In this document: positions 37,801 to 47,952 of the stretch, in pieces
How the letters are laid out: every line of letters begins with the position of its first letter
Position numbering within the stretch: the first letter of the stretch is position 1
Assembly: GCA_937918935.1 (NCBI GenBank)
Contig: CAKZSI010000059.1
Location: 1 to 64,000 of the forward strand
DNA from: an uncultured Chloroflexales bacterium
GTDB taxonomy: Bacteria > Chloroflexota > Chloroflexia > Chloroflexales > Chloroflexaceae
Length of the DNA: 64,000 nucleotides
Reading direction: 5' to 3'
Program-made: the position numbers and the translations under genes
The notes under the pieces: generated by a model
Database searches by the model: none
What the model saw: only the letters and a program-made list of their open reading frames with translations
What the model was told of the DNA's origin: nothing

Positions 37801-37994
37801 TGCCCCACTGTCCCTACGGCGCGATCCAACTCGACGGCGAGCGGAAGGTCGCGCGGGTCGAGGAGGTGCAGTGCAAGGGCTGCGGCACGTGTGTGGCAGC
37901 CTGCCCGTCGGGCGCCTTGCAACAACGGGGATTCAGCGACGAGCAGTTGCTGGCGATGATCGGGGCGGCCTGGGAGGAGCCTGCCTATGAGTGA
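34824..37994 (+). CDS. tandem HdrA-like flavin/Fe-S fusion protein
   Basis: The 1056-residue protein is two HdrA modules in one chain. Module 1 (about 1-435): FAD motif VIGAGISGMHAA, FPTNDCAICIAAPKM, and two 4Fe-4S motifs (CTGCGDCANACP, CVGCGACDRACA). A linker follows. From about 495 comes the HdrA N-terminal domain (VVVCGCGKNISGFVDV, VVAACSPITHGPVFQ), then a second FAD motif (VIGGGVAGMTAAM) and two C-terminal ferredoxin motifs (about 985-1030: CAGCGLCVPHCP, CKGCGTCVAACP). HdrA is the flavin-bifurcating subunit of heterodisulfide reductase complexes. Start is uncertain (34809, 34824 or 34827). It overlaps mvhD by 8 bp. Confidence 0.9.
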   Translation: MMETHAYDVLVIGAGISGMHAALDLADQGFKVLVVERQASIGGTMVKLDKTFPTNDCAICIAAPKMVELARHPNITLLTSAQVERVSGSAGNFEVLIWRQATYVDPEKCTGCGDCANACPVEVDDVFNGRLSRRKAIYLQFPQAVPAIYTIDYGNCVGCGACDRACAAGAIAFLRRSRPVTVTVSSIVVATGFETLEPTEIRKEYGYGRYPNVVTAIQYERLLSASGPTGGAVARPSDGRHPGRVAWIQCVGSRSVQGGYPYCSKICCMYATREALITLEHAPGTEATIFYMDLRAYGKDFQQFYRRAAGQGVRYVRSRPAAVEEDRDRRLVVTYEDTLSGVVRRECFDLLVLSTAIVPAPENRRLARALGIEVDAYGFFVPRDPLLDPLRSSREGVFLAGGAQGPNDIPDSVAQASGAAALAATGPLAGRRLNGSWQARATGVPTVAVQSGETGTRLAPDQPGLPAVAAGAPQAQTGEAGVEEERSVAGAETPRVGVVVCGCGKNISGFVDVPAITEAARGLPGVAFAEACTFACSEDVQRRIRAAITGQGLNRLVVAACSPITHGPVFQQTCAEAGLNPGLFEMANIRNQCSWVHSSDPAPATAKAVDLVRMAVARAGKSRELPLRTVEVTRSCLVIGGGVAGMTAAMTLADLGIDTFLVEREARLGGKLNTLATLAPGDVPASAVRDHLVREVQQRPRIRLFLGAEVREVSGYIGDFRVTLDEGPGGMLNELRVGAIIVATGFQEADLRGRFGYGADPRVITQLELERSLREGTLGAPRTVVMINCAGSMDAENPACCRIGCGISVKNARMLHRVAPAARIVMLYQDMRVYGSGQEEAFTRMLDEVTPQRVRYAPDRPPRVTLCDGRLVVLVHDSLLDEELAIEADLVVLTAALRGDADTPRLKRLLKVATDAQGFYREAHAKIRPLDFNTDGIYLCGADHYPRSVPDTIAQAAGAASRAAIPLLRGRVSVEPIVAEVAAEACAGCGLCVPHCPYGAIQLDGERKVARVEEVQCKGCGTCVAACPSGALQQRGFSDEQLLAMIGAAWEEPAYE

Positions 37995-38415
37995 GCCATT
38001 CGAGCCGCGCCTGCTGGGTCTGCTGTGTAGCTGGTGCGCCTATGGCGGCGCCGATACGGCCGGCGTGAGCCGCCTGCAGTACCCGCCGAACATCCGCATC
38101 GTGCGGGTGATGTGTAGCGGACGGGTGGACCCGCTCTTCGTCGTGCGCGCCTTTGAGCAGGGCGCCGATGGGGTGCTGGTGGCTGGTTGTCATCCCGGCG
38201 ATTGTCATTACGCCACTGGCAACGTCTTCGCCGAGCAGCGCTTCGCGCGCTTCGCGAGCCTGCTCGACTTTTTCGGCATTGACCGCCGCCGCTTCAAACT
38301 GGCCTGGGTCTCGGCTTCGGAGGGAGCGCGTTTCGCCGCCGTGGTCACTGAGATGACCGAGGAGATCCGCGCCCTCGGTCCCCTGAAGATGAAGGCGTCC
38401 GCATGGCAAGCCTGA
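37987..38415 (+). CDS. mvhD: MvhD-type [2Fe-2S] electron-transfer subunit
   Basis: The 142-residue protein shows the MvhD/FlxD pattern: LLCSWCAYGGADTAG at the N-terminus, RVMCSGRVDP, and GADGVLVAGCHPGDCHY. MvhD carries a [2Fe-2S] cluster and passes electrons between a hydrogenase, formate dehydrogenase or NADH module and HdrA. No hydrogenase or dehydrogenase catalytic subunit follows here, so its partner must be the next protein or an unlinked one. It overlaps both neighbours. Confidence 0.92.
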   Translation: MSEPFEPRLLGLLCSWCAYGGADTAGVSRLQYPPNIRIVRVMCSGRVDPLFVVRAFEQGADGVLVAGCHPGDCHYATGNVFAEQRFARFASLLDFFGIDRRRFKLAWVSASEGARFAAVVTEMTEEIRALGPLKMKASAWQA

Positions 38416-39269
38416 TCGAAGAGCAGATCCGGATGCGGGCCAGCAACCTGCTGGCCGAGGGGCGGATCGATGGGTTTGTCGGCTACCGGCAAGGCTCGGG
38501 GCCGCTACGGGTGGCGCCGTTCGTGGCCCGCGCGCCGGCAGAGGTTGAGAAGCTGGTCTGGAACCCGGTGTGCGTGCCGAACCTGGCCGGCGTCCTCCGC
38601 AAGCATGCCGGGCAACGGGTAGGCGTGGCGCTGAAGGCTTGCGACACGCGCAGCGTGGTGGAGTTGCTGCGTCTGCGCCAACTGGACCGCGAGCGCCTGT
38701 ACCTGATCGGCGTGCCCTGCCGGGGTATGCTCGGCCCTGAGAAGGTCGCTGCGGTTGCCGCGGGCCGGGTGACTGGCCTGGCGGAGGAAGGGGCGGAGGT
38801 GGTGATCAGCGTCGGTAGCGAAACGCTGCGCCACGAGCGCGCCGGGCTGCTGCTGGCGAAATGCGCCGGGTGCACGACCGCCCCCACGGAGTGGTTTGAC
38901 GAAACGCTGGAAGAGGACGTCCCGGCGGCGCTTCCCGGCGACCGCTTCGCCGCGGTGCGGGCGCTGGAGGCGCTTGAAGCAGCCGAACGGATGGGCTTCT
39001 GGCAGCAGCACTTCAGCCGCTGCACCCTTTGCTACGCATGCCAGACGGTTTGCCCGCTCTGCTTCTGCAAGGAGTGCGCGCTGGCGCTGGAACGTGACGA
39101 TCCCCGTCGGCTGGCCCGTGAGCCGGCCAGCGTGTTCGCCTTCCACCTGATGCGGGCCTACCACCTGGCCGAACGCTGCACCGGCTGCGATGAGTGCGAG
39201 CGGGTCTGCCCGGAAGATATTCCGTTGAGCCTGATCTGCCGGAAACTGGAACTGGACCGCCTGGAGTAG
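38403..39269 (+). CDS. FrhB/FlxB-like iron-sulfur protein
   Basis: The 288-residue protein has an N-terminal region like the FrhB/FdhB family (VGVALKACDTRSVVELLRLRQ, YLIGVPCRGM), a KCAGC motif near 157-161, and Cys clusters for Fe-S centres: CTLCYACQTVCPLCFCKEC (about 207-225) and CTGCDECERVCPEDIP (about 260-275). It resembles FlxB-type or formate dehydrogenase beta-like subunits in Hdr clusters and could be the entry point for electrons. Its donor is unknown. It overlaps mvhD by 13 bp, so tight coupling is expected. Confidence 0.8.
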   Translation: MASLIEEQIRMRASNLLAEGRIDGFVGYRQGSGPLRVAPFVARAPAEVEKLVWNPVCVPNLAGVLRKHAGQRVGVALKACDTRSVVELLRLRQLDRERLYLIGVPCRGMLGPEKVAAVAAGRVTGLAEEGAEVVISVGSETLRHERAGLLLAKCAGCTTAPTEWFDETLEEDVPAALPGDRFAAVRALEALEAAERMGFWQQHFSRCTLCYACQTVCPLCFCKECALALERDDPRRLAREPASVFAFHLMRAYHLAERCTGCDECERVCPEDIPLSLICRKLELDRLE

Positions 39270-39453
39270 CGGATGTACTATTGCCACAGAGGATGTGGTG
39301 GGCGGAGTTGTTTGGGGTCGCGCATTTACCGGTGAGGCGCACCTGGATGGCAGCGACTGATGGATACCCCGAAAACCTCCTTCACGGACCATTGAGCGGG
39401 CATGGGAGATGTCGTTGTACCCCATCCCGCCCGAGGTGTCAGGAGATAAGGCC

Positions 39454-39858
39454 ATGACCATAGCGATCGGTGCGAACGGACAGTCCGGGGCCTTGCTGCG
39501 GCGGGTTGAGGCGCTGAGCGGGCAGCGGCTGGCGCAGTGCTACCAGTGCGGCACGTGCGCGGCGGGGTGTCCCTTCGCCACAGCGATGGATGTGCTGCCG
39601 GACCGGCTGATCCGCCACCTGTTGTTCGACATGCCGGGGGTGCTGGAGCGTGAGGCATTCTGGGTCTGCGTGGGCTGTGAACTGTGCGCGCAGCGTTGCC
39701 CACGGGGGATTGACGTGCCACGGGTGATGGAGGCCCTGCGGCTGATCGCCCTGCGCACGCGGGGCGATCAACTGCCGGTGGCGCAGATCACCGCCGTGGC
39801 GCTCGAAAACCTGCCGCCGATAGCTCTGGTTGCCAGCCTGCGCCGGCAGACAGGGTGA
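39454..39858 (+). CDS. hdrC: HdrC-like iron-sulfur subunit
   Basis: The 134-residue protein carries two 4Fe-4S motifs in the HdrC arrangement: C29-x2-C32-x2-C35-x3-C39 and C72-x2-C75-x2-C78-x3-C82 (CVGCELCAQRCP). HdrC connects HdrA to the catalytic HdrB. ATG 39454 was chosen because AGGAG lies 8-9 bases upstream; an in-frame ATG at 39409 is possible. A 184-bp gap before it holds nothing recognisable. Confidence 0.9.
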   Translation: MTIAIGANGQSGALLRRVEALSGQRLAQCYQCGTCAAGCPFATAMDVLPDRLIRHLLFDMPGVLEREAFWVCVGCELCAQRCPRGIDVPRVMEALRLIALRTRGDQLPVAQITAVALENLPPIALVASLRRQTG

Positions 39859-39993
39859 GGGAGTGGAGGTGTAGGGCCATTTGATTTACAGCTCCACAGG
39901 TCTTCACCTGCACAGACCAGTCAGTGGGCCGTGGAGCAACGTTGAAACTGGACCGTCCAGATCTGAAACGTGCCTGAGGAAAGAAGCCCTGCC

Positions 39994-40884
39994 ATGCAAC
40001 TGGCCTATTACCCCGGCTGCACCATCAAGGTCTCGGCGCGCGAGCATGAGCGGGCGGCGCTGGCGATACTCAGGGAACTGGGCATCGCCCTGCGCGAGAT
40101 GCCCGAATGGAACTGCTGCGGGGTGGTGCATACCCTCACCGGCGAGAACTTGATTCGCCAGATGGCGCCGCTGCGGGTGCTGGCGCGCCTGCGGCAGCAG
40201 GGTGAGCGTGAGGCGGTGACGCTGTGCGATATGTGCTTCAACACCCTGGCGCGGGCCAATCACCTGGCGCGGACGCAGCCGGATCAGGTGTCCGCCCTCA
40301 ACGCGACCAGCGGCGGCGGCCTCGATTACGACGGCGCTGGCGAGGTGCTGCACCTGCTGCATCTCCTGCGCGACCGGGTGGGTCTGGCGGCGATTCGCAA
40401 GCGGGTGCGCCGTCCCCTGCGCGACCTGGTGGTGTACCCCTACTACGGCTGCAAGTTGCTGCGCCCAACCGGGATCGGCCTCGACGACCCCGAGATGCCA
40501 ACCCTGCTGCGCGACCTGATGGAGTCCCTGGGCGCGACTGTGGTCGAGGGGTCGCTGCAGACGCAGTGTTGCGGGGCTTACCTGGCGGTGGATCGGGCGG
40601 GGCTGGTTACGGAGCGGGTGGGCGCGACGGTGGAGCAGGCCCGCGACGCCGGGGCCGGGGCGATTGTGCTTTCGTGCCCGCTGTGCCACTTCAACTTCGC
40701 GACGCTCCAACCCCATGCCGGCGCACCGTTGCCGGTGCTGTATTACACCCAGGCGATTGGCCTGGCCTTTGGCCTTGACCCGGCGGAACTGGGGCTGGAT
40801 GATCGGCAGATGGAGGCGCTGGGCAGGGCCGTGCCCTCTCAGGCCCTCCACGACCTCGCGCACGCGAGAGGAGGATCGGCATGA
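39994..40884 (+). CDS. hdrB: HdrB-like catalytic subunit with two CCG domains
   Basis: The 296-residue protein has both CCG motifs complete: C9, C41-C42, C78, C81, and C153, C192-C193, C228, C231. In methanogen HdrB these bind two non-cubane [4Fe-4S] clusters that cleave the CoM-S-S-CoB disulfide. Here the disulfide substrate is unknown, or the site may be an electron relay. The last 35 residues overlap a repeat-like sequence (GGGCAGGGCC-GTGCCCTC at about 40821-40838). ATG 39994 follows GAGGAAAGAAG; GTG 39970 is an alternative. It overlaps the next gene by 4 bp. Confidence 0.93.
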   Translation: MQLAYYPGCTIKVSAREHERAALAILRELGIALREMPEWNCCGVVHTLTGENLIRQMAPLRVLARLRQQGEREAVTLCDMCFNTLARANHLARTQPDQVSALNATSGGGLDYDGAGEVLHLLHLLRDRVGLAAIRKRVRRPLRDLVVYPYYGCKLLRPTGIGLDDPEMPTLLRDLMESLGATVVEGSLQTQCCGAYLAVDRAGLVTERVGATVEQARDAGAGAIVLSCPLCHFNFATLQPHAGAPLPVLYYTQAIGLAFGLDPAELGLDDRQMEALGRAVPSQALHDLAHARGGSA

Positions 40885-41654
40885 GCGAACCTGCCACGCT
40901 GGTCACAATGGAACTGATGGGCAAAGAGTACCGCGTGCCGAGCGGTCTGACGATCCTGGCGGCGATTGAGTACGCCGGCTACAAGCTGGTGCGCGGCGTC
41001 GGCTGTCGCGGCGGCTTCTGCGGGGCCTGCCCCACCCTCTACCGCCGCGAGGGCAGCCACCGCATCTTCACTGCGCTGGCCTGCCAGACCCTGGTCGAAG
41101 ATGGCATGTGCCTGGTGCAGATGCCCTTCGTGCCGGTGCCGACCAAACCCTATGATCTGCACGGCATCACGCCGCAGCCAACTACGCTGCTGCGCTTCTT
41201 CCCCGAAATCGCCGGCTGCGTGGCCTGCAACACCTGCACCCGCGCCTGTCCGCAGGGCCTGCCGGTGATGGACTACATCCAGGCGGCGCTGCGGGGGGAT
41301 ATCGAGCGCGTGGCGATGCTGTCGTTCGACTGCATCGCCTGCGGGATCTGTTCAAGTCGCTGCCCCGCTGACATCAAACACTACGCGGTAGGCCTGCTGG
41401 CGCGGCGGATCTACGGCAAGTACCTGGTACCGCCGTCGGAGGACCTGGCCGTGCGGGTCAGCGCGATCGAGGCCGGGCGCTACGACGCGGAGTTGCGCAA
41501 GTTGATGGAGCTGCCCCTCGCCGACCTGCGCGCACGCTACGAGCAGCGCAACTTTGAAACAGTGGCCGAGCAGCACAGGGACCACAGTGCCACCCAACGC
41601 TACAACTCGCCTATGGACCCGGTGGATTACCAGGATGAGTTGGAGGGTGTGTAG
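40881..41654 (+). CDS. fumarate-reductase/TfrB-like iron-sulfur subunit
   Basis: The 257-residue protein has an N-terminal [2Fe-2S] ferredoxin domain (C42, C47, C50, C68) and two 4Fe-4S motifs (C113/116/119/123 and C151/154/157/161). Succinate dehydrogenase B has three different clusters; this arrangement, with two classic CxxCxxCxxxC motifs, is like the N-terminal half of methanogen TfrB, whose C-terminal half is HdrB-like. Here HdrB is the separate, overlapping upstream gene, so the two may form a split TfrB. It probably passes electrons between HdrB/C and the flavoprotein that follows. Confidence 0.85.
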   Translation: MSEPATLVTMELMGKEYRVPSGLTILAAIEYAGYKLVRGVGCRGGFCGACPTLYRREGSHRIFTALACQTLVEDGMCLVQMPFVPVPTKPYDLHGITPQPTTLLRFFPEIAGCVACNTCTRACPQGLPVMDYIQAALRGDIERVAMLSFDCIACGICSSRCPADIKHYAVGLLARRIYGKYLVPPSEDLAVRVSAIEAGRYDAELRKLMELPLADLRARYEQRNFETVAEQHRDHSATQRYNSPMDPVDYQDELEGV

Positions 41655-41681
41655 ACAGCGCAGGTGCGAGTAGGGAGGAGA

Positions 41682-41785
41682 AGGGCGCAGGGAAACCTGG
41701 TTTCCCCGTCCATCGAGCGGGAAGGGCGTGGCCCTCTCAGCCGCTTGCAGCAGGGGCGCGGGGAAACCTGGTTTCTCCACCCTCC
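41682..41785. repeat. two family A palindromes plus a family B copy inside the operon
   Basis: Family A copies at 41682-41710 and 41751-41785 flank a family B-like GGAAGGGCGTGGCCCTCTC (41720-41738). They fill the 155 bp between the Fe-S and flavoprotein genes and could set differential expression by processing or partial termination. Confidence 0.8.
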
Positions 41786-41809
41786 TTCAATCGAGCGAGG
41801 AGCGACGGC

Positions 41810-43459
41810 ATGGAGCTTATTGACGGCTATCCGGCGTCGATGCGCGAGAGCATCGCCCTGGTTGAGCGCACCCGCCCCGCCCGTCTGGGCCGGACCTTCC
41901 CGGCTATGAGCCTGGAGGAGCGCAAGGCGCTGCTCCTCGGGCACCACCCCGACTACCAGGCCGGCGCCAAGCGACCCCTGCGATTCGGACCGAGCAAGGG
42001 TCTGCTGCTCAACCACGAACTCGCCGATCTGTTCGAGGCCCGCCCACTGGTGCGTCCCAACCTCGACCTGAGCACGATTGACGCCGATGTGGACCTGCTG
42101 GTGATCGGCGGCGGCGGTGCGGGCACGGTGGCGGCGATCTGGGCGGTGCAAAGCGGGCTGGATCCGGCGAGAGTGCTGATCGCCACCAAACTGCGCCACG
42201 GCGACTCGAACTCGACCATGGCCCAGGGCGGCATCCAGGCCGCCGACCGGCCCGAGGACTCGCCGGTGCAGCACTTTCTGGATGTGATGGGCGGGGGGCA
42301 CTTCACCAACCGGCCCGACCTGGTGCGGGCGCTGGTGAGCGACGCGCCATTGATCATCCAGTGGCACGAGCGCCTGGGGGTGATGTACGACAAAGACAGC
42401 CAGGGGCGCTTCGTCGAAAACCCTGGCGGGGGCACCTCGCGCAACCGCATGCACTCGGCCCGCGACTATACCGGCCTGGAGATTATGCGCGTGCTGCGCG
42501 ACGAGGCGCGCAACCTCGGCATCCGGGTGATCGAGTTTTCGCCGGCAATCGAATTACTCGGTGATGAGAGCGGCCGGGTGGCCGGGGCGGTGCTGCTCAA
42601 TCTGGAGACCCGACGCTACTACATCGTGCGGGCCGCGGCGACGGTGCTGACCACCGGTGGTCTGGGACGGGTGCACATCCAGCGCTTCCCCACCACCAAC
42701 CACTACGGGGCCACCGGCGACGGGCTGGTGCTGGCCTACCGTGCCGGCGCCGAACTGGTGGATCTCGACGCGGTGCAGTATCACCCCACCGGGGCGGCCT
42801 TCCCCGCTCAGATGGCCGGATTGCTGATTACCGAAAAGGTGCGCGGCCTGGGGGCGCAACCGCTCAATCGCCTGGGCGAACAGTTCGTCTTTCCCCTGGA
42901 GCCGCGCGATGTGGAGGCAGCGGCCTTCATCCGCGAGTGCGGCGAACGGGGCCTGGGCATTCCCACGCCCCACGGCATCTGCGGGGTCTGGCTGGACGCC
43001 CCGATGGTGGACCTGATCCACGGGCCGGGGACCATTCGCGCCGCGCTGCCGGCGATGTACCGCATGTATACGCGCTTCGGCATTGACATGACCCGCGATC
43101 CGATCCTGGTCTTCCCGACCCTGCACTACCAGAATGGGGGCGTGGCCGCCGATGAGCACGGCGCGACCCGCGTGCCGGGCCTGTTCGTGGCTGGCGAGGT
43201 GATGGGCGGCATCCACGGCAAGAACCGGCTTATGGGCAACTCGCTGCTCGACTTCAACGTGTTTGGTCGGCGCGCGGGCATCGCCGCTGCGCACTACGCG
43301 CGCGCCCATCGCCCCGGGCGGTTGAGCCTGGCCCACGTGGCCGAATACGAGCGCATGCTCCGCGAGGCCGGCGTCGAAACCACGCGCACCGCCCCGCGCA
43401 TTCTGCCCGATTATCGCGGGAAAGAGGCTCTGGAGCGCTACCTGGATGTGCCGGTGTAA
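41810..43459 (+). CDS. fumarate reductase/succinate dehydrogenase-family flavoprotein (TfrA-like)
   Basis: The 549-residue protein has an N-terminal extension of about 90 residues, the FAD motif VIGGGGAGTVAA (near 97-108), HGDSNSTMAQGG, and SdhA-type active-site segments: AVQYHPTGAAFP, ITEKVRGLGAQPLNR, FPTLHYQNGGV, and GIHGKNRLMGNSLLDF. These place it in the FrdA/SdhA/NadB superfamily with the catalytic His and Arg regions conserved. With the Fe-S and Hdr-like genes it most resembles thiol:fumarate reductase TfrA. Fumarate as substrate is inferred. GAGGAG lies 7 bases before the ATG. Confidence 0.87.
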   Translation: MELIDGYPASMRESIALVERTRPARLGRTFPAMSLEERKALLLGHHPDYQAGAKRPLRFGPSKGLLLNHELADLFEARPLVRPNLDLSTIDADVDLLVIGGGGAGTVAAIWAVQSGLDPARVLIATKLRHGDSNSTMAQGGIQAADRPEDSPVQHFLDVMGGGHFTNRPDLVRALVSDAPLIIQWHERLGVMYDKDSQGRFVENPGGGTSRNRMHSARDYTGLEIMRVLRDEARNLGIRVIEFSPAIELLGDESGRVAGAVLLNLETRRYYIVRAAATVLTTGGLGRVHIQRFPTTNHYGATGDGLVLAYRAGAELVDLDAVQYHPTGAAFPAQMAGLLITEKVRGLGAQPLNRLGEQFVFPLEPRDVEAAAFIRECGERGLGIPTPHGICGVWLDAPMVDLIHGPGTIRAALPAMYRMYTRFGIDMTRDPILVFPTLHYQNGGVAADEHGATRVPGLFVAGEVMGGIHGKNRLMGNSLLDFNVFGRRAGIAAAHYARAHRPGRLSLAHVAEYERMLREAGVETTRTAPRILPDYRGKEALERYLDVPV

Positions 43460-43563
43460 TGGGGTTCTGGATTGCCGTCTATGGCATCTTGCTGAGACCT
43501 GGCGATTGTGTCATGGAGAGGCGTGGAGGGCCAGCACCTCTGCGGCTCCCACTGTAGGGCCAT

Positions 43564-43785
43564 ATGCACACCATTCAGATCGACGAAGGCTGGTGCAAAG
43601 GATGCGCCCTGTGCGTCATCTACTGTCCTACCCGGGCGCTGCAGGTGGCTGCGCGCTTCTCGCCGCGGGGCGTGCATCCCCCGGAACTGGTTCGCCCCGA
43701 GCGGTGCAACGGTTGCCGGCTGTGCGAATTGCTGTGCCCGGATTTCGCCATCACGGTGACGGAGGAAGGCCGTGTCCACGCATAG
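43564..43785 (+). CDS. korD: KorD-like 2x[4Fe-4S] ferredoxin subunit
   Basis: The 73-residue protein has two classic motifs, C11-x2-C14-x2-C17-x3-C21 and C48-x2-C51-x2-C54-x3-C58, each ending in CP. It is the delta (ferredoxin) subunit of four-subunit 2-oxoacid:ferredoxin oxidoreductases. It overlaps korA by 14 bp. Start ATG 43564 has only a weak AGGG ribosome site, and the 104-bp gap before it holds nothing recognised. Confidence 0.88.
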   Translation: MHTIQIDEGWCKGCALCVIYCPTRALQVAARFSPRGVHPPELVRPERCNGCRLCELLCPDFAITVTEEGRVHA

Positions 43786-44950
43786 AGAACTGATCCGGCG
43801 GGCGCTCGGCCCCAGGGTGCAATTCGTGCAGGGGGACGACGCCTGCGCCTATGGCGCGGTACTGGCGGGCTGCACCTTCTTCGCTGGCTACCCGATCACC
43901 CCCGCCACCGAGGTCGCCGAGCGTATGGCCGAGATCCTGCCCCGCATCGGCGGCTGCTACATCCAGATGGAAGATGAGATCGCCAGTATGGGCGCGCTTG
44001 TTGGCGCAAGCTGGACCGGGGCGAAGGTGATGACCTCGACCTCCGGCCCCGGTTTTTCGCTGATGCAGGAGAACCTGGGCTACGCCATCATGACCGAGAC
44101 GCCCTGCGTGGTGGTCAATGTGCAGCGATCCGGGCCATCCACCGGGCAGCCGACGATGGGGGCCTACGGCGACATGATGCAGGCCCGCTGGGGCACCCAC
44201 GGCGACCACGAGATCATTATGCTCTGCCCGGCGTCGGTGCAGGAGGTCCTGGAGATCACCATCGTGGCCTTTAACCTTGCCGAACGGTTGCGGACGCCGG
44301 TGCTGGTGTTCATTGATGGCGAACTGGGACACATGCGCGAGCGCCTGGTCATCCCCGACGATGACGAGTTTGAACTGGTGGAGCGCCCGCGCGCCACCGA
44401 TCGGGCCAGTTACCGCCCCTTCGCCCCCGGCCCGGATCTGGTGCCGCCCTTCGCCCCCTTCGGGTCGGGTTTCCGCACCTTTGTGACCGGGCTGACCCAC
44501 AACGAGGAGGGCCTGCCGCGGGCCTCCAGCGCCGCCGTTCACGATCAACTGGTGCGCCGGCTGGCGGCCAAGATTACCAATCATCTTGACTTGATAACGC
44601 GCTACGAAGAGTTCTACGCCGACGACTGCGAGATCGCCATCGTGGCCTATGGCATTACCGCCCGCACCTGCCGCGACGTAGTGGAAGAGGCCCGGCGCCG
44701 GGGCATCAAGGCCGGGTTGCTGCGGCTGATCAGCATCTGGCCCTTTCCCGAGCACATTGTCGCCCGCTGGGCCGAACGGGTGCGGGCCATGCTCGTCCCA
44801 GAGATGAACCTGGGGCAGATCGTGCACCCCATCCGCGAGGCCGTCGCCGGACGATGCGTGGTAAAGCCATACGCCCGGATCGGCGGCGAGTTGCACACTC
44901 CCGCTGAACTGCTGGAAGCGCTGGAGGCATTGCAATGGCAACCGGCCTGA
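43772..44950 (+). CDS. korA: 2-oxoacid:ferredoxin oxidoreductase alpha subunit (KorA-like)
   Basis: The 392-residue subunit begins with the gamma/alpha-type pyrimidine-binding fold. FFAGYPITPATEVAERMAE, YIQMEDEIASMGALVGAS, TSTSGPGFSLMQENLGYA and QRSGPSTGQPTMG are those of KorA (2-oxoglutarate synthase alpha). It contributes CoA and TPP binding. GTG 43772 has GGAGG 5-7 bases upstream and lies inside korD. The 2-oxoglutarate specificity is inferred from motif similarity and the D-A-B-C gene order; related 2-oxoacids cannot be excluded. Confidence 0.9.
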   Translation: MSTHRELIRRALGPRVQFVQGDDACAYGAVLAGCTFFAGYPITPATEVAERMAEILPRIGGCYIQMEDEIASMGALVGASWTGAKVMTSTSGPGFSLMQENLGYAIMTETPCVVVNVQRSGPSTGQPTMGAYGDMMQARWGTHGDHEIIMLCPASVQEVLEITIVAFNLAERLRTPVLVFIDGELGHMRERLVIPDDDEFELVERPRATDRASYRPFAPGPDLVPPFAPFGSGFRTFVTGLTHNEEGLPRASSAAVHDQLVRRLAAKITNHLDLITRYEEFYADDCEIAIVAYGITARTCRDVVEEARRRGIKAGLLRLISIWPFPEHIVARWAERVRAMLVPEMNLGQIVHPIREAVAGRCVVKPYARIGGELHTPAELLEALEALQWQPA

Positions 44951-45795
44951 AGATCAAAACCGCCGCCGAGTTGCGGACGAACTACCTGCGGCGGGAGATG
45001 TTCCCGACGATCTTCTGCGATGGGTGCGGCCTCGGCAATGTGCTGAACTACACCCTCTGGGCGATTGATGAAGTGGGCCTTGACCTCGATCGGACGGTGT
45101 TCGTGTCGGGGATCGGTTGCTCGTCGCGGCTCCCCGGCTACATCAATGCCGACGGTCTGCATGCCACCCACGGGCGGGCGCTGGCCTTCGCCTCGGGGAT
45201 CAGGGCCGCCAATCCCGACCTGACGGTGATCGTCTTCACCGGCGATGGCGACGGGGCGGGCATTGGCGGCAATCACCTGCTGCACACCATTCGCCGCAAC
45301 ATGGACGTAACCGTGATCCTGGTCAACAACTTCACCTACGGCATGACCGGCGGCCAGTCCGCGCCCACCACGCCCGATGGCGGCTTCAGTTCAACGACGC
45401 CCTACGGCAACATTGAGCATCCACTGGATATCTGCGAACTGGCGAAGGCCCTGGGGGCGCCCTACGTGGCCCGCTGGCCGGTGGTCTCGCCGGCGCAGCC
45501 GGTCAAATCGATTGCCGAAGGTATTCGCAAGCGCGGCTTCGCGCTGATCGAGATGCTCACCCCCTGCCCGACGGCCTATGGCCGGCGCAACGGGCTGAAG
45601 GAAATCGAGCAGATCTGGCGCTGGTACCGCGAACACACGGTGCTGCTCGACGAGTGGGAGTGGGTGGAGCAATTCGGATCGCCCGAGGAGCGCGAGGCGC
45701 TGCGGGGCAAGCTGAAGATCGGCGTCTTTCAGGATACCGAGCGCGAGACGTTCGAGGATCGCTGGGCCGCGCTGGTGGCGAGGGAAAAGCTATGA
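44935..45795 (+). CDS. korB: 2-oxoacid:ferredoxin oxidoreductase beta subunit (KorB-like)
   Basis: The 286-residue TPP-binding subunit has CDGCGLGNVLNY (C28, C31), SGIGCSSRLPGY (C62), the TPP motif GDGDGAGIGGNHLLH (from about 103) ending in NN at 131-132, and the metal-site region FTYGMTGGQSAPTTP. It binds TPP and one [4Fe-4S] cluster. GGAGG lies 7 bases before the ATG, and the gene overlaps korA by 16 bp. Confidence 0.93.
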   Translation: MATGLKIKTAAELRTNYLRREMFPTIFCDGCGLGNVLNYTLWAIDEVGLDLDRTVFVSGIGCSSRLPGYINADGLHATHGRALAFASGIRAANPDLTVIVFTGDGDGAGIGGNHLLHTIRRNMDVTVILVNNFTYGMTGGQSAPTTPDGGFSSTTPYGNIEHPLDICELAKALGAPYVARWPVVSPAQPVKSIAEGIRKRGFALIEMLTPCPTAYGRRNGLKEIEQIWRWYREHTVLLDEWEWVEQFGSPEEREALRGKLKIGVFQDTERETFEDRWAALVAREKL

Positions 45796-46334
45796 AACGC
45801 GAGATTCGTATCTGCGGCTTCGGCGGACAGGGCGTGATCACCGCGGCGGTCATCCTGGGCAAAGCGGCGGCGGTCCACGACGGGTTGACGGCCTGCCAGG
45901 TGCAGTCCTACGGCCCGGAGGCCCGTGGCGGGGCGGCACGGGCCGAGGTGATCATCGCCGATCAGCCGATTGGCTACCCCGGCATTCACCTGGCCGACGT
46001 GCTGGTGGCTATGTCGCAGGAGGCCTACAACCGCTATGGGCGGGCGATCAAACCCGGGGCGATGGTGATTATCGATCCCGACCTGGTCTTCCAGCACGAC
46101 GAGGCCCGGCCGGTGACACCGGTGCGTGCCACGAAGATCGCCGAGGGCCTTGGCAACACCGTGGTGGCGAATATCGTCATGCTCGGCGCAGTGGCGGCGC
46201 TGACCAGGGTGGTCTCGCCGGAGGCGCTACTGGCGGCCACGCTGGAGAGTGTCCCGGCCCGTTTCCGCGAGTTGAACCGGCGCGCCCTGGAGGCGGGGAT
46301 GCAGGTGGCAGGGGTGCCGGTCCTCGCTCAGTAA
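45792..46334 (+). CDS. korC: 2-oxoacid:ferredoxin oxidoreductase gamma subunit (KorC-like)
   Basis: The 180-residue protein starts REIRICGFGGQGVITAAVILGKAA and has SYGPEARGGAARAEVIIAD, the hallmark segments of the gamma domain. ATG 45792 overlaps the korB stop by ATGA. This is the last gene of the operon; 55 bp separate it from the convergent selenoprotein gene. Together korDABC encode a complete enzyme that can oxidise 2-oxoglutarate with ferredoxin, or carboxylate succinyl-CoA when reduced ferredoxin is abundant. Confidence 0.93.
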   Translation: MKREIRICGFGGQGVITAAVILGKAAAVHDGLTACQVQSYGPEARGGAARAEVIIADQPIGYPGIHLADVLVAMSQEAYNRYGRAIKPGAMVIIDPDLVFQHDEARPVTPVRATKIAEGLGNTVVANIVMLGAVAALTRVVSPEALLAATLESVPARFRELNRRALEAGMQVAGVPVLAQ

Positions 46335-46389: not shown

Positions 46390-47217
46390 TCAGGGCAAAT
46401 CCCAGCGATCCGGCTCCTCGTATTCCTCACGGCGCCAGCGCCAGCCCGGATCGATGATCGTCCCCGACTCGCGCACGGTGTAGAGGGCCTGCAACGCGAT
46501 GTAGATCACGCAGAGTTGTTGCGCCCGGTTGCCCGGCTCCCCCAGTGGATGGCCGAAGGGCCACTTCAGGTGAATGGCGCGGGGCGGGCGCACCCGCTCG
46601 GCAATCTCGCGCAGCCCGATAACGCATATGGTCGGGATGCCAAACGTCTCGATGACCCGGGCGATCAGTCCCACGGACTGATTGCAGAGTCCTCAGGCAG
46701 GGGTGAGCAGCACCGCGTCGATCTGCTCCTGCCGCAGCATCCCCGCGACCTCCGGCGCGGTCTGGCGGATCAGTGTCTCAACGTGGGGCGGCTCGATGTG
46801 CCCCATGAAGCTGTAACAGGTTCCGAGGCCGCCGATGGCGCCGTGGGCGGCCAGTTCGCGCGCCAGTTCCAGCGGAAAAAGGATGTTGAGATCACGCTCG
46901 GCGTCGGAGTGGTCGTAGTAGTCGTGGGTGATCATCAACTCGTCCACAGGCGTATCGGCGGGGATGACCCGGTAACTGGGATCGCCGTGTGAGTCGTGCA
47001 TGTCGAACGGCGTCTGGGCGCGCAGATGCACCCCGCCTGTCGTGACCAGGGCCAGCCGTGCCTCCCGCAGCGGCTTCTCCAGACGCGCCAGGGGTACCGG
47101 CTGGCCCTCGACGGCGTCGAACCATTGTCCCCAGAGCCGCGCCAGTTCGGGCGCCTGGGAGAGGAACTGCCCGAAGGCGCTCCCCAGGCGTTGCCGTAGC
47201 CAGTCAAAGTCGGTCAT
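46390..47217 (-). CDS. GrdB/PrdB-family selenoprotein with in-frame UGA (Sec175)
   Basis: Read through one UGA (46695-46693), this is a 275-residue member of the glycine/sarcosine/betaine/D-proline reductase selenoprotein B family. Family segments before the UGA include VTTGGVHLRAQTPFDMHD, DELMITHDYYDHSDAERDLN, CYSFMGHIE and DAVLLTPA. After it come GLCNQSVGLIARVIETFGIP and KWPFGHPLGEP. The UGA is at the family's Sec/Cys position, giving U-G-L-C. A hairpin follows with SECIS-like spacing. The family uses the selenol in reductive cleavage; this short form resembles PrdB (about 240). Substrate is unknown. ATG 47217 has AGGAA upstream. Confidence 0.88.
46664..46682 (-). promoter_or_regulatory. 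SECIS-like hairpin after the UGA codon
   Basis: On the minus strand ATCAGTCC pairs perfectly with GGACTGAT around GTG. The stem begins 10 nt after the UGA and the loop 18 nt after it, with a G first in the loop. These fit rules known for bacterial SECIS elements. Confidence 0.75.
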
Positions 47218-47292
47218 ACGAGGTTCCTGACAAGACTATAGGCAACCGGAGGAGGGGAAAAACAAGGTTCCCCTGGTTCTCTCCATCGCCCC

Positions 47293-47874
47293 CTACCGTG
47301 CCGCGATCCCATCGAGCAGAGTCTCGACGATCTGGGTTGCGGTATGCTCATCGGCCAGGCGGGCGCAGGGATGGTCGGTGTGGAAGAAGGGGTAGAGCAT
47401 CCCCAGCAGCAGCCAGGTTGTCACGTGGGGATTGACCGGGCGCAACTCGCCTTGCGTCACCCCGTCGCGAATGATGGCCTCGATTGGCTCTAGAAAGCCG
47501 CTGGCGTAGCAACGCTGGATGCGCTCGCGCGTGGCCTCGCCCAGGCGGGGCAGATCCTGCGTGCCGAGACGAATGAGCGCGCGCTGGAGGGGTGCCTGGG
47601 CAAACAGGCCCCGCACCAGAACGGCCAGCCGGGCGCGCGTGTCGGGCGCCTGGCGCGCCGCCGCTACCAGCGCCTCGGTCTCGGCGACCCAGTGCGTCAG
47701 CACCGCCTCCAGCAGGTCTTCCTTGTCGCGGAAGTGGTAGTACAGTCCGGGCTTGGAGATCCCCGCCGCCTCGGCGATTTCGCGCATGGCCACACCGTCG
47801 TAGCCCTGGGCTACGATGAGCCGCGCCGCCTCGACAATGATGGTTTCCCGGACGCTGTCGGTTGGTCCGCTCAT
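47293..47874 (-). CDS. TetR/AcrR-family transcriptional regulator
   Basis: The 193-residue protein has the TetR N-terminal helix-turn-helix (ETIIVEAARLIVAQGYDGVAM, then EIAEAAGISKPGLYYHFRDKEDLL, about 12-60) and a helical ligand-binding domain. GAGGAG lies 8-9 bases before ATG 47874, which was preferred to the in-frame ATG at 47901. It is encoded just downstream of the MFS gene on the same strand. A perfect palindrome sits at the MFS promoter, so it very probably represses that transporter. Inducer is unknown. Confidence 0.92.
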   Translation of the reverse strand: MSGPTDSVRETIIVEAARLIVAQGYDGVAMREIAEAAGISKPGLYYHFRDKEDLLEAVLTHWVAETEALVAAARQAPDTRARLAVLVRGLFAQAPLQRALIRLGTQDLPRLGEATRERIQRCYASGFLEPIEAIIRDGVTQGELRPVNPHVTTWLLLGMLYPFFHTDHPCARLADEHTATQIVETLLDGIAAR

Positions 47875-47883
47875 GGCGGAACT

Positions 47884-47952
47884 CCTCGGATCCTCACCCA
47901 CCCCCCGGCTCCCCCTCTGCGCTGCCGGTGGAGAGGGGGGTGGTGAGGAAGG
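47884..47952. terminator. long G/C-rich inverted repeat between MFS and tetR genes
   Basis: CCTCACCCACCCCCC pairs with GGGGGGTGGTGAGG. It lies just after the MFS stop, upstream of tetR, and may reduce read-through. No T-tract is seen. Confidence 0.5.

Follow-up and report, generated by a model that had tools for sequence, protein, structure and literature searches.

An apparently split gene on the minus strand of the window (the whole stretch of 64,000 nucleotides analysed here, from contig CAKZSI010000059.1 of an uncultured Chloroflexales bacterium, assembly GCA_937918935.1) very probably encodes one selenoprotein, in which an in-frame UGA is read as selenocysteine (Sec). Insertion of Sec had been proposed from the letters of this DNA alone, and we infer the same from the Sec machinery of the genome, the position of the UGA, a covarying hairpin with its constrained codon choice, purifying selection, and the alignment of this UGA with that of PrdB genes. 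The product is classed as a stand-alone PrdB-like selenoprotein of the UxxC type. An apparently broken gene thereby becomes a functional one, and it points to a widespread selenoenzyme.

Gene structure and conservation of the UGA site

The following features define the gene.

46390..47217, minus strand: gene of the putative PrdB-like selenoprotein, from an ATG start to a TGA stop; 275 residues, of which one is Sec (U175)
46693..46695, minus strand: in-frame UGA at codon 175, the putative Sec position of the U-G-L-C motif
46684..46686, minus strand: codon of Cys178, the putative redox partner of Sec175 (UxxC)

The first open reading frame (ORF; 47217..46693, ATG start, 174 aa) ends at the TGA at 46695-46693, past which the same frame is open up to the TGA at 46392-46390 with no other stop inside. 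For the second ORF, the sole start listed is the GTG at 46674, within the NQSVGL motif. When the UGA is written as U, the joined product has 275 residues and U175 stands in the context LTPA-U-GLCNQSVGLIARVIE; the sequence-only reading, in which two minus-strand frames join in phase via this single UGA, was correct in both coordinates and motif. With the family model TIGR04483, the joined protein scores 162.3 bits and the separate halves 103.8 and 32.2 bits, which, together with the retention of the UGA among homologues described below, puts the joined reading beyond chance.

The codon-position G+C before the UGA is similar to that after it and to that of five neighbouring genes. When the 100 codons after the UGA were compared with those of three relatives, the synonymous and non-synonymous changes numbered 20 and 3, 27 and 6 (L025), and 28 and 11, respectively. 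Since the differences are mainly in the third position, this part of the gene is better regarded as translated protein than as a decayed tail.

Ninety rows of homologous sequence reach the UGA site and, with several species present in two collections, give 74 distinct 51-base segments starting at the UGA codon. The site codon is TGA in 73 of the 74 segments and GGA in one (L077), and the partner Cys codon is TGC or TGT in 73 and TGA in one. The lone GGA segment (L077:5493-5495) may have truly lost Sec, or its GGA may stem from an error in sequencing. A set of 61 related genomes that includes the window's own has matches in 31 members, at 37 listed places. The site is covered by 33 of these matches, each of which contains TGA (a single one in 31 and two in the other two); the remaining four are fragments that stop short of it. 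Codon-by-codon readings drawn from the 33 site-reaching matches place TGA exactly at the site in 29 of 29 cases, and a search of the phylum did so in 28 of 28 loci read, some of which are the same genes as in the 61-genome set. Scanning the contigs of GTDB genomes gave 62 loci, whose record titles name Chloroflexi, Nitrospirae, Deltaproteobacteria, Gemmatimonadetes and others.

Extra internal stops suspected in three loci (L079, L100 and L101) were rejected, each being really the C-terminal stop, with the tblastn match running on for another 2-14 codons. In another locus (L067), the frame is open for 318 codons beyond U. A further paralogue with TGA, 35-39% identical, is present in L050 and L051 and as second copies in the genomes G033, G040 and G009; in L050 and L051, the two that were read, the motif is U-P-L-C-S-Q-S-V-G-L-I-A-R.

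The SECIS-type hairpin and the double-UGA paralogues

A hairpin of the SECIS type follows the UGA.

46664..46682, minus strand: SECIS-type hairpin, 8-bp stem ATCAGTCC/GGACTGAT with a GTG loop, +14 to +32 relative to the U of UGA; putative SelB-binding site

The folding energy of the 51-nt segment bearing it is -21.2 kcal/mol, with a z of -2.32, which is modest on fold score alone. Across the 74 segments, 94.6% of stem cells are paired (eight pairs are formed in 48 segments, seven in 22, six in 3 and four in 1). Stem cells changed on both sides number 15 versus 3.1 in shuffles, and 0 of 500 shuffles were as high; shuffle counts and p-values here and in the co-occurrence analysis ignore shared ancestry and are indicative only. 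The actual register is the best of all slides, and sliding the stem partner drops the pairing to 8-50%. Examples of compensatory change are CAA/TTG for CAG/CTG (L081 and L109) and ACG/GGT for TCC/GGA (L080 and L106).

The covarying hairpin forces the codon choice in the stem. The stem Gly codon is GGA in 54 of 71 cases versus 13% elsewhere in the genes, and GGC in 0 of 71 versus 49%; the stem Ser codon is AGY in 0 of 68 versus 41% elsewhere in these genes, and the stem Leu codon is CTG in 68 of 74 versus 37%. At the Gly codon that adjoins the UGA and lies outside the stem, GGC is retained in 21 of 60. No SECIS model of Rfam was matched under an E-value threshold, the search giving three chance matches only. 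Because bacterial SECIS elements are variable, this null result carries little weight.

A paralogue with two UGAs was used as a query against 158 genomes of the window's class, and seven close matches (74-99% identity) were found in seven genomes, the query's included. All seven have two TGAs, and the other matches (at most 43% identity, or fragments) have one or none.

L049/L146, L147, L148, L149, L150, L151 and L152, in the window's class: double-UGA PrdB-like paralogues

The motif in all seven is CPA/APA/AAA-U-PI-U-HQSVALVQRAIE. Their hairpin at the standard position is weaker, with 62.5% of cells paired. All seven also have a 6-bp hairpin, with the loop CGUGC (GGUCC in L150), at a distance of 24-40 nt from the first UGA; its GU, at +22/+23 of the second UGA, is in the register of the standard family. 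Since the 6-bp stem is invariant, it gives no covariation evidence, and there are competing folds in some of the seven. In the tree, the double-UGA clade groups with the PrdA-linked PrdB, with weak support (89/84), and apart from the window's clade. The UxxU motif is listed, in the portions of the literature accessible to us, for Prx-like, metal-binding/mercuric-reductase-like and FmdB-type proteins, and not for PrdB or GrdB.

Family identity, selenocysteine machinery and gene neighbourhood

The PrdB model TIGR04483 is the best family match of the joined protein, at a score below its equivalog cut-off of 300 bits. PF07355 is matched with 31.7 bits against a gathering cut-off of 22 (profile positions 213-345 of 347), and the cut-offs of GrdB-type models are missed: TIGR01918, TIGR01917, NF040795 and NF040794 give 51.9, 47, 53 and 49.5 bits against 65.45, 602.2, 775 and 800, respectively. 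No match to PF09338 (PrdA/GrdE) was found in the window's genome by a search that was positive in two prdA records, and 0 of the 61 related genomes matched it in a search holding no positive control of its own; tblastn with two PrdA proteins against 175 loci matched only the two prdA records. Since no PrdA/GrdE-family protein was found in these 61 genomes, 31 of which are carriers, it is doubtful whether this branch should bear the name of a proline reductase. The label of GrdB/PrdB family given to the gene earlier holds in that the protein is PrdB-like with UxxC, and has to be narrowed in that it is not PrdB proper.

Annotated PrdB references were obtained from plasmid records of Terrisporobacter mayombei (L143) and Ligilactobacillus salivarius (L144). 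In both, prdB is located two genes after prdA and is annotated as a single CDS across an in-frame TGA, so the expectation that such a gene would come out of standard pipelines as two short proteins does not hold in general. U175 of the window protein shares its alignment column with the in-frame UGA of both prdB genes, at 34-35% identity, which agrees with the earlier placing of Sec at the known PrdB position. In a 48-row tree with a midpoint root, the window gene belongs to a 31-row clade with Herpetosiphon, Nitrospirota and deltaproteobacterial rows (98/91), and the PrdA-linked PrdB pair lies outside this clade.

The window's genome (4.60 Mb in 85 contigs, 99.99% complete) was searched for the Sec machinery, and all four components were found: selA (558.9 bits), selD (376.6 bits), selB (322.4 bits, or 345.7 counting a C-terminal piece) and tRNA-Sec with the anticodon UCA. 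A lack of selB or tRNA-Sec, which had been named earlier as an outcome against the Sec reading, was thus not borne out. Among the 61 genomes, selA is above cut-off in 29 of 31 carriers versus 17 of 30 non-carriers (Fisher p 0.001), the two carriers without it being G046 (86% complete) and G057 (76%). Among 400 Chloroflexota genomes, 99 have family members at E 1e-10, of which 82 have TGA-bearing matches and 17 have none; this set takes in longer GrdB-sized frames, and the position of the TGA is established in the 28 loci read. With selA counted at E 1e-30, it is present in 78 of the 82 TGA carriers versus 244 of the 318 other Chloroflexota genomes. The four TGA carriers without it are G231 (84% complete), G360 (77%), G145 and G306, and since the last two are both 95% complete, they count against a perfect link with selA.

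Two features lie directly upstream of the gene.

47293..47901, minus strand: TetR-family regulator, upstream of the selenoprotein gene, an adjacency kept in part of the genus only
47263..47275, minus strand: terminator-like hairpin between the TetR and selenoprotein genes, weak (1 found versus 0.6 expected in shuffles)

Homologues of the TetR gene and of an MFS gene adjoin the selenoprotein gene in the window's genome (G000), G004/L053 and G002; on the short contigs of G001 (L026 and L054), the fourth carrier in the genus, neither was found. Outside the genus, none of the 11 window neighbours tested accompanies a homologue. In three of three named Herpetosiphon loci examined (L084, L088 and L089), the selenoprotein gene is preceded on its own strand, at a distance of about 100 nt, by a thioredoxin gene (WCGPC), a neighbour seen in Herpetosiphon only. 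Neighbours in small clades, read by eye, include a c-type-cytochrome-like ORF at 5 loci and an ABC-ATPase-like group at 9 loci on mixed strands. No operon-based function was derived from the TetR and MFS genes, the convergent 2-oxoacid oxidoreductase genes, the recurring neighbours or the near-chance terminator. Convergent with the selenoprotein gene, positions 37987-46334 of the plus strand hold ORFs resembling MvhD/FrhD-type, heterodisulfide-reductase-like, fumarate-reductase-like and 2-oxoacid:ferredoxin oxidoreductase proteins, the last two ORFs of this cluster being assigned by Pfam and the others by eye.

Alternative readings, proposed function and known systems

A reading of the UGA as a genuine stop, with the gene being either a pseudogene or a pair of separate proteins, is extremely unlikely. 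The two halves are indeed separate ORFs under table 11, but the same UGA is kept in the distinct segments with one exception and homologues occur in several phyla, the change past the UGA is mostly synonymous with no other stop inside, and the second ORF could start, among the listed positions, only inside the motif. Decay had been named earlier as the outcome that would speak for a pseudogene, and the relatives, which retain the UGA with mostly synonymous change after it, did not bear this out. We attach a negligible probability to decoding of the UGA as an amino acid other than Sec, such as Trp through suppression or a change of code: against the fact that the frame is open under any sense reading stand the complete Sec system of the genome, a hairpin at a fixed distance that is maintained at the expense of codon choice, and the UGA in the same column of PrdA-linked PrdB, which is termed a selenoenzyme in the title of a paper cited in the available part of a review (PMC13188914).

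That the protein is the true D-proline reductase subunit PrdB, paired with PrdA in Stickland-type reduction, would agree with its best family match and with its identity to the two PrdA-linked PrdB proteins. This assignment is nevertheless very unlikely, because the score is under the equivalog cut-off, PF09338 is absent from the window's genome and from the 61 genomes in the searches described above, tblastn with PrdA matched nothing beyond the two prdA records, and the PrdA-linked PrdB proteins lie outside the clade of the window gene. An even chance is given to a broader proposal, in which the gene would belong to a separate stand-alone selenoenzyme family derived from the PrdB/GrdB fold, independent of PrdA/GrdE, with Sec near-obligatory in the core clade and with non-Stickland chemistry; in a related clade, the resolving Cys would have been replaced by Sec (U-P-I-U) and the SECIS hairpin moved by three codons, keeping the register to the second UGA. 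A PrdB cut-off alone would miss such stand-alone PrdB-like selenoenzymes in annotation.

For the selenoprotein reading, conservation and machinery suggest that SelB and Sec-tRNA(UCA) would decode the UGA at codon 175 as selenocysteine, SelB being directed by the hairpin with its 10-nt spacer after the UGA and GUG in the loop. Sec175 and Cys178 would then most likely cycle between the selenol/thiol and selenenylsulfide states. In an AlphaFold2 model (pLDDT 93.3, pTM 0.92), U175 is placed between a strand (168-172) and a helix (178-191), a placing typical of redox CxxC sites. Sequence searches of solved structures found no relative up to E 1, and Foldseek gave no match at E 0.001 or better; the best VIA-align Z was 7.8, which is under the telling level of the tool and reflects common alpha/beta arrangements only. 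These searches are taken as evidence neither for a function nor for a new fold. The stand-alone PrdB-like protein is probably a thiol-dependent reductase. It may work without PrdA, reduce a small substrate and be re-reduced by a thioredoxin-type protein, a proposal that we consider as likely to be wrong as right and much less certain than the reading of the UGA as Sec.

Since Sec-containing "PrdB" is already in print, the window gene adds to a known group. In the accessible parts of the respective reports, 42 Sec-containing "PrdB" genes were described from the Sargasso Sea (PMC1088965), a table of the GOS data gives 235 Sec and 110 Cys sequences with UxxC and pfam07355 under "proline reductase PrdB" (PMC2398784), Anaeromyxobacter dehalogenans and a Geobacter figure in a 2006 survey as having proline reductase selenoproteins (PMC1794560), and a 2026 review (PMC13188914) describes GrdB and PrdB as each having a single Sec, in UxxC. 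The openly licensed literature yielded no functional study of the stand-alone PrdB-like forms.

As far as the available parts of the two marine reports go (PMC1088965 and PMC2398784), the metagenomic "PrdB" resembles the window gene in that it has UxxC and is abundant and mostly Sec-containing; one might guess from these descriptions that it belongs to the same clade. The "selenoprotein B family protein" of a Roseomonas plasmid (L145) is likewise stand-alone, with no prd genes annotated alongside, but differs in having Cys in place of Sec, 32% identity and a very long tree branch. For GrdB, GrdF and GrdH of the glycine, sarcosine and betaine reductases (PF07355 and TIGR01918), the window protein matches the second half of the profiles, whereas its 275 residues compare with 431-435 in the models and only the PF07355 cut-off is passed. 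From PrdB (TIGR04483) it is set apart by the lack of a detected PrdA/PF09338 partner and by a score of 162.3 versus 300 bits, while the length class, the UxxC motif, the column of the UGA and an identity of 34-35% are common to both.
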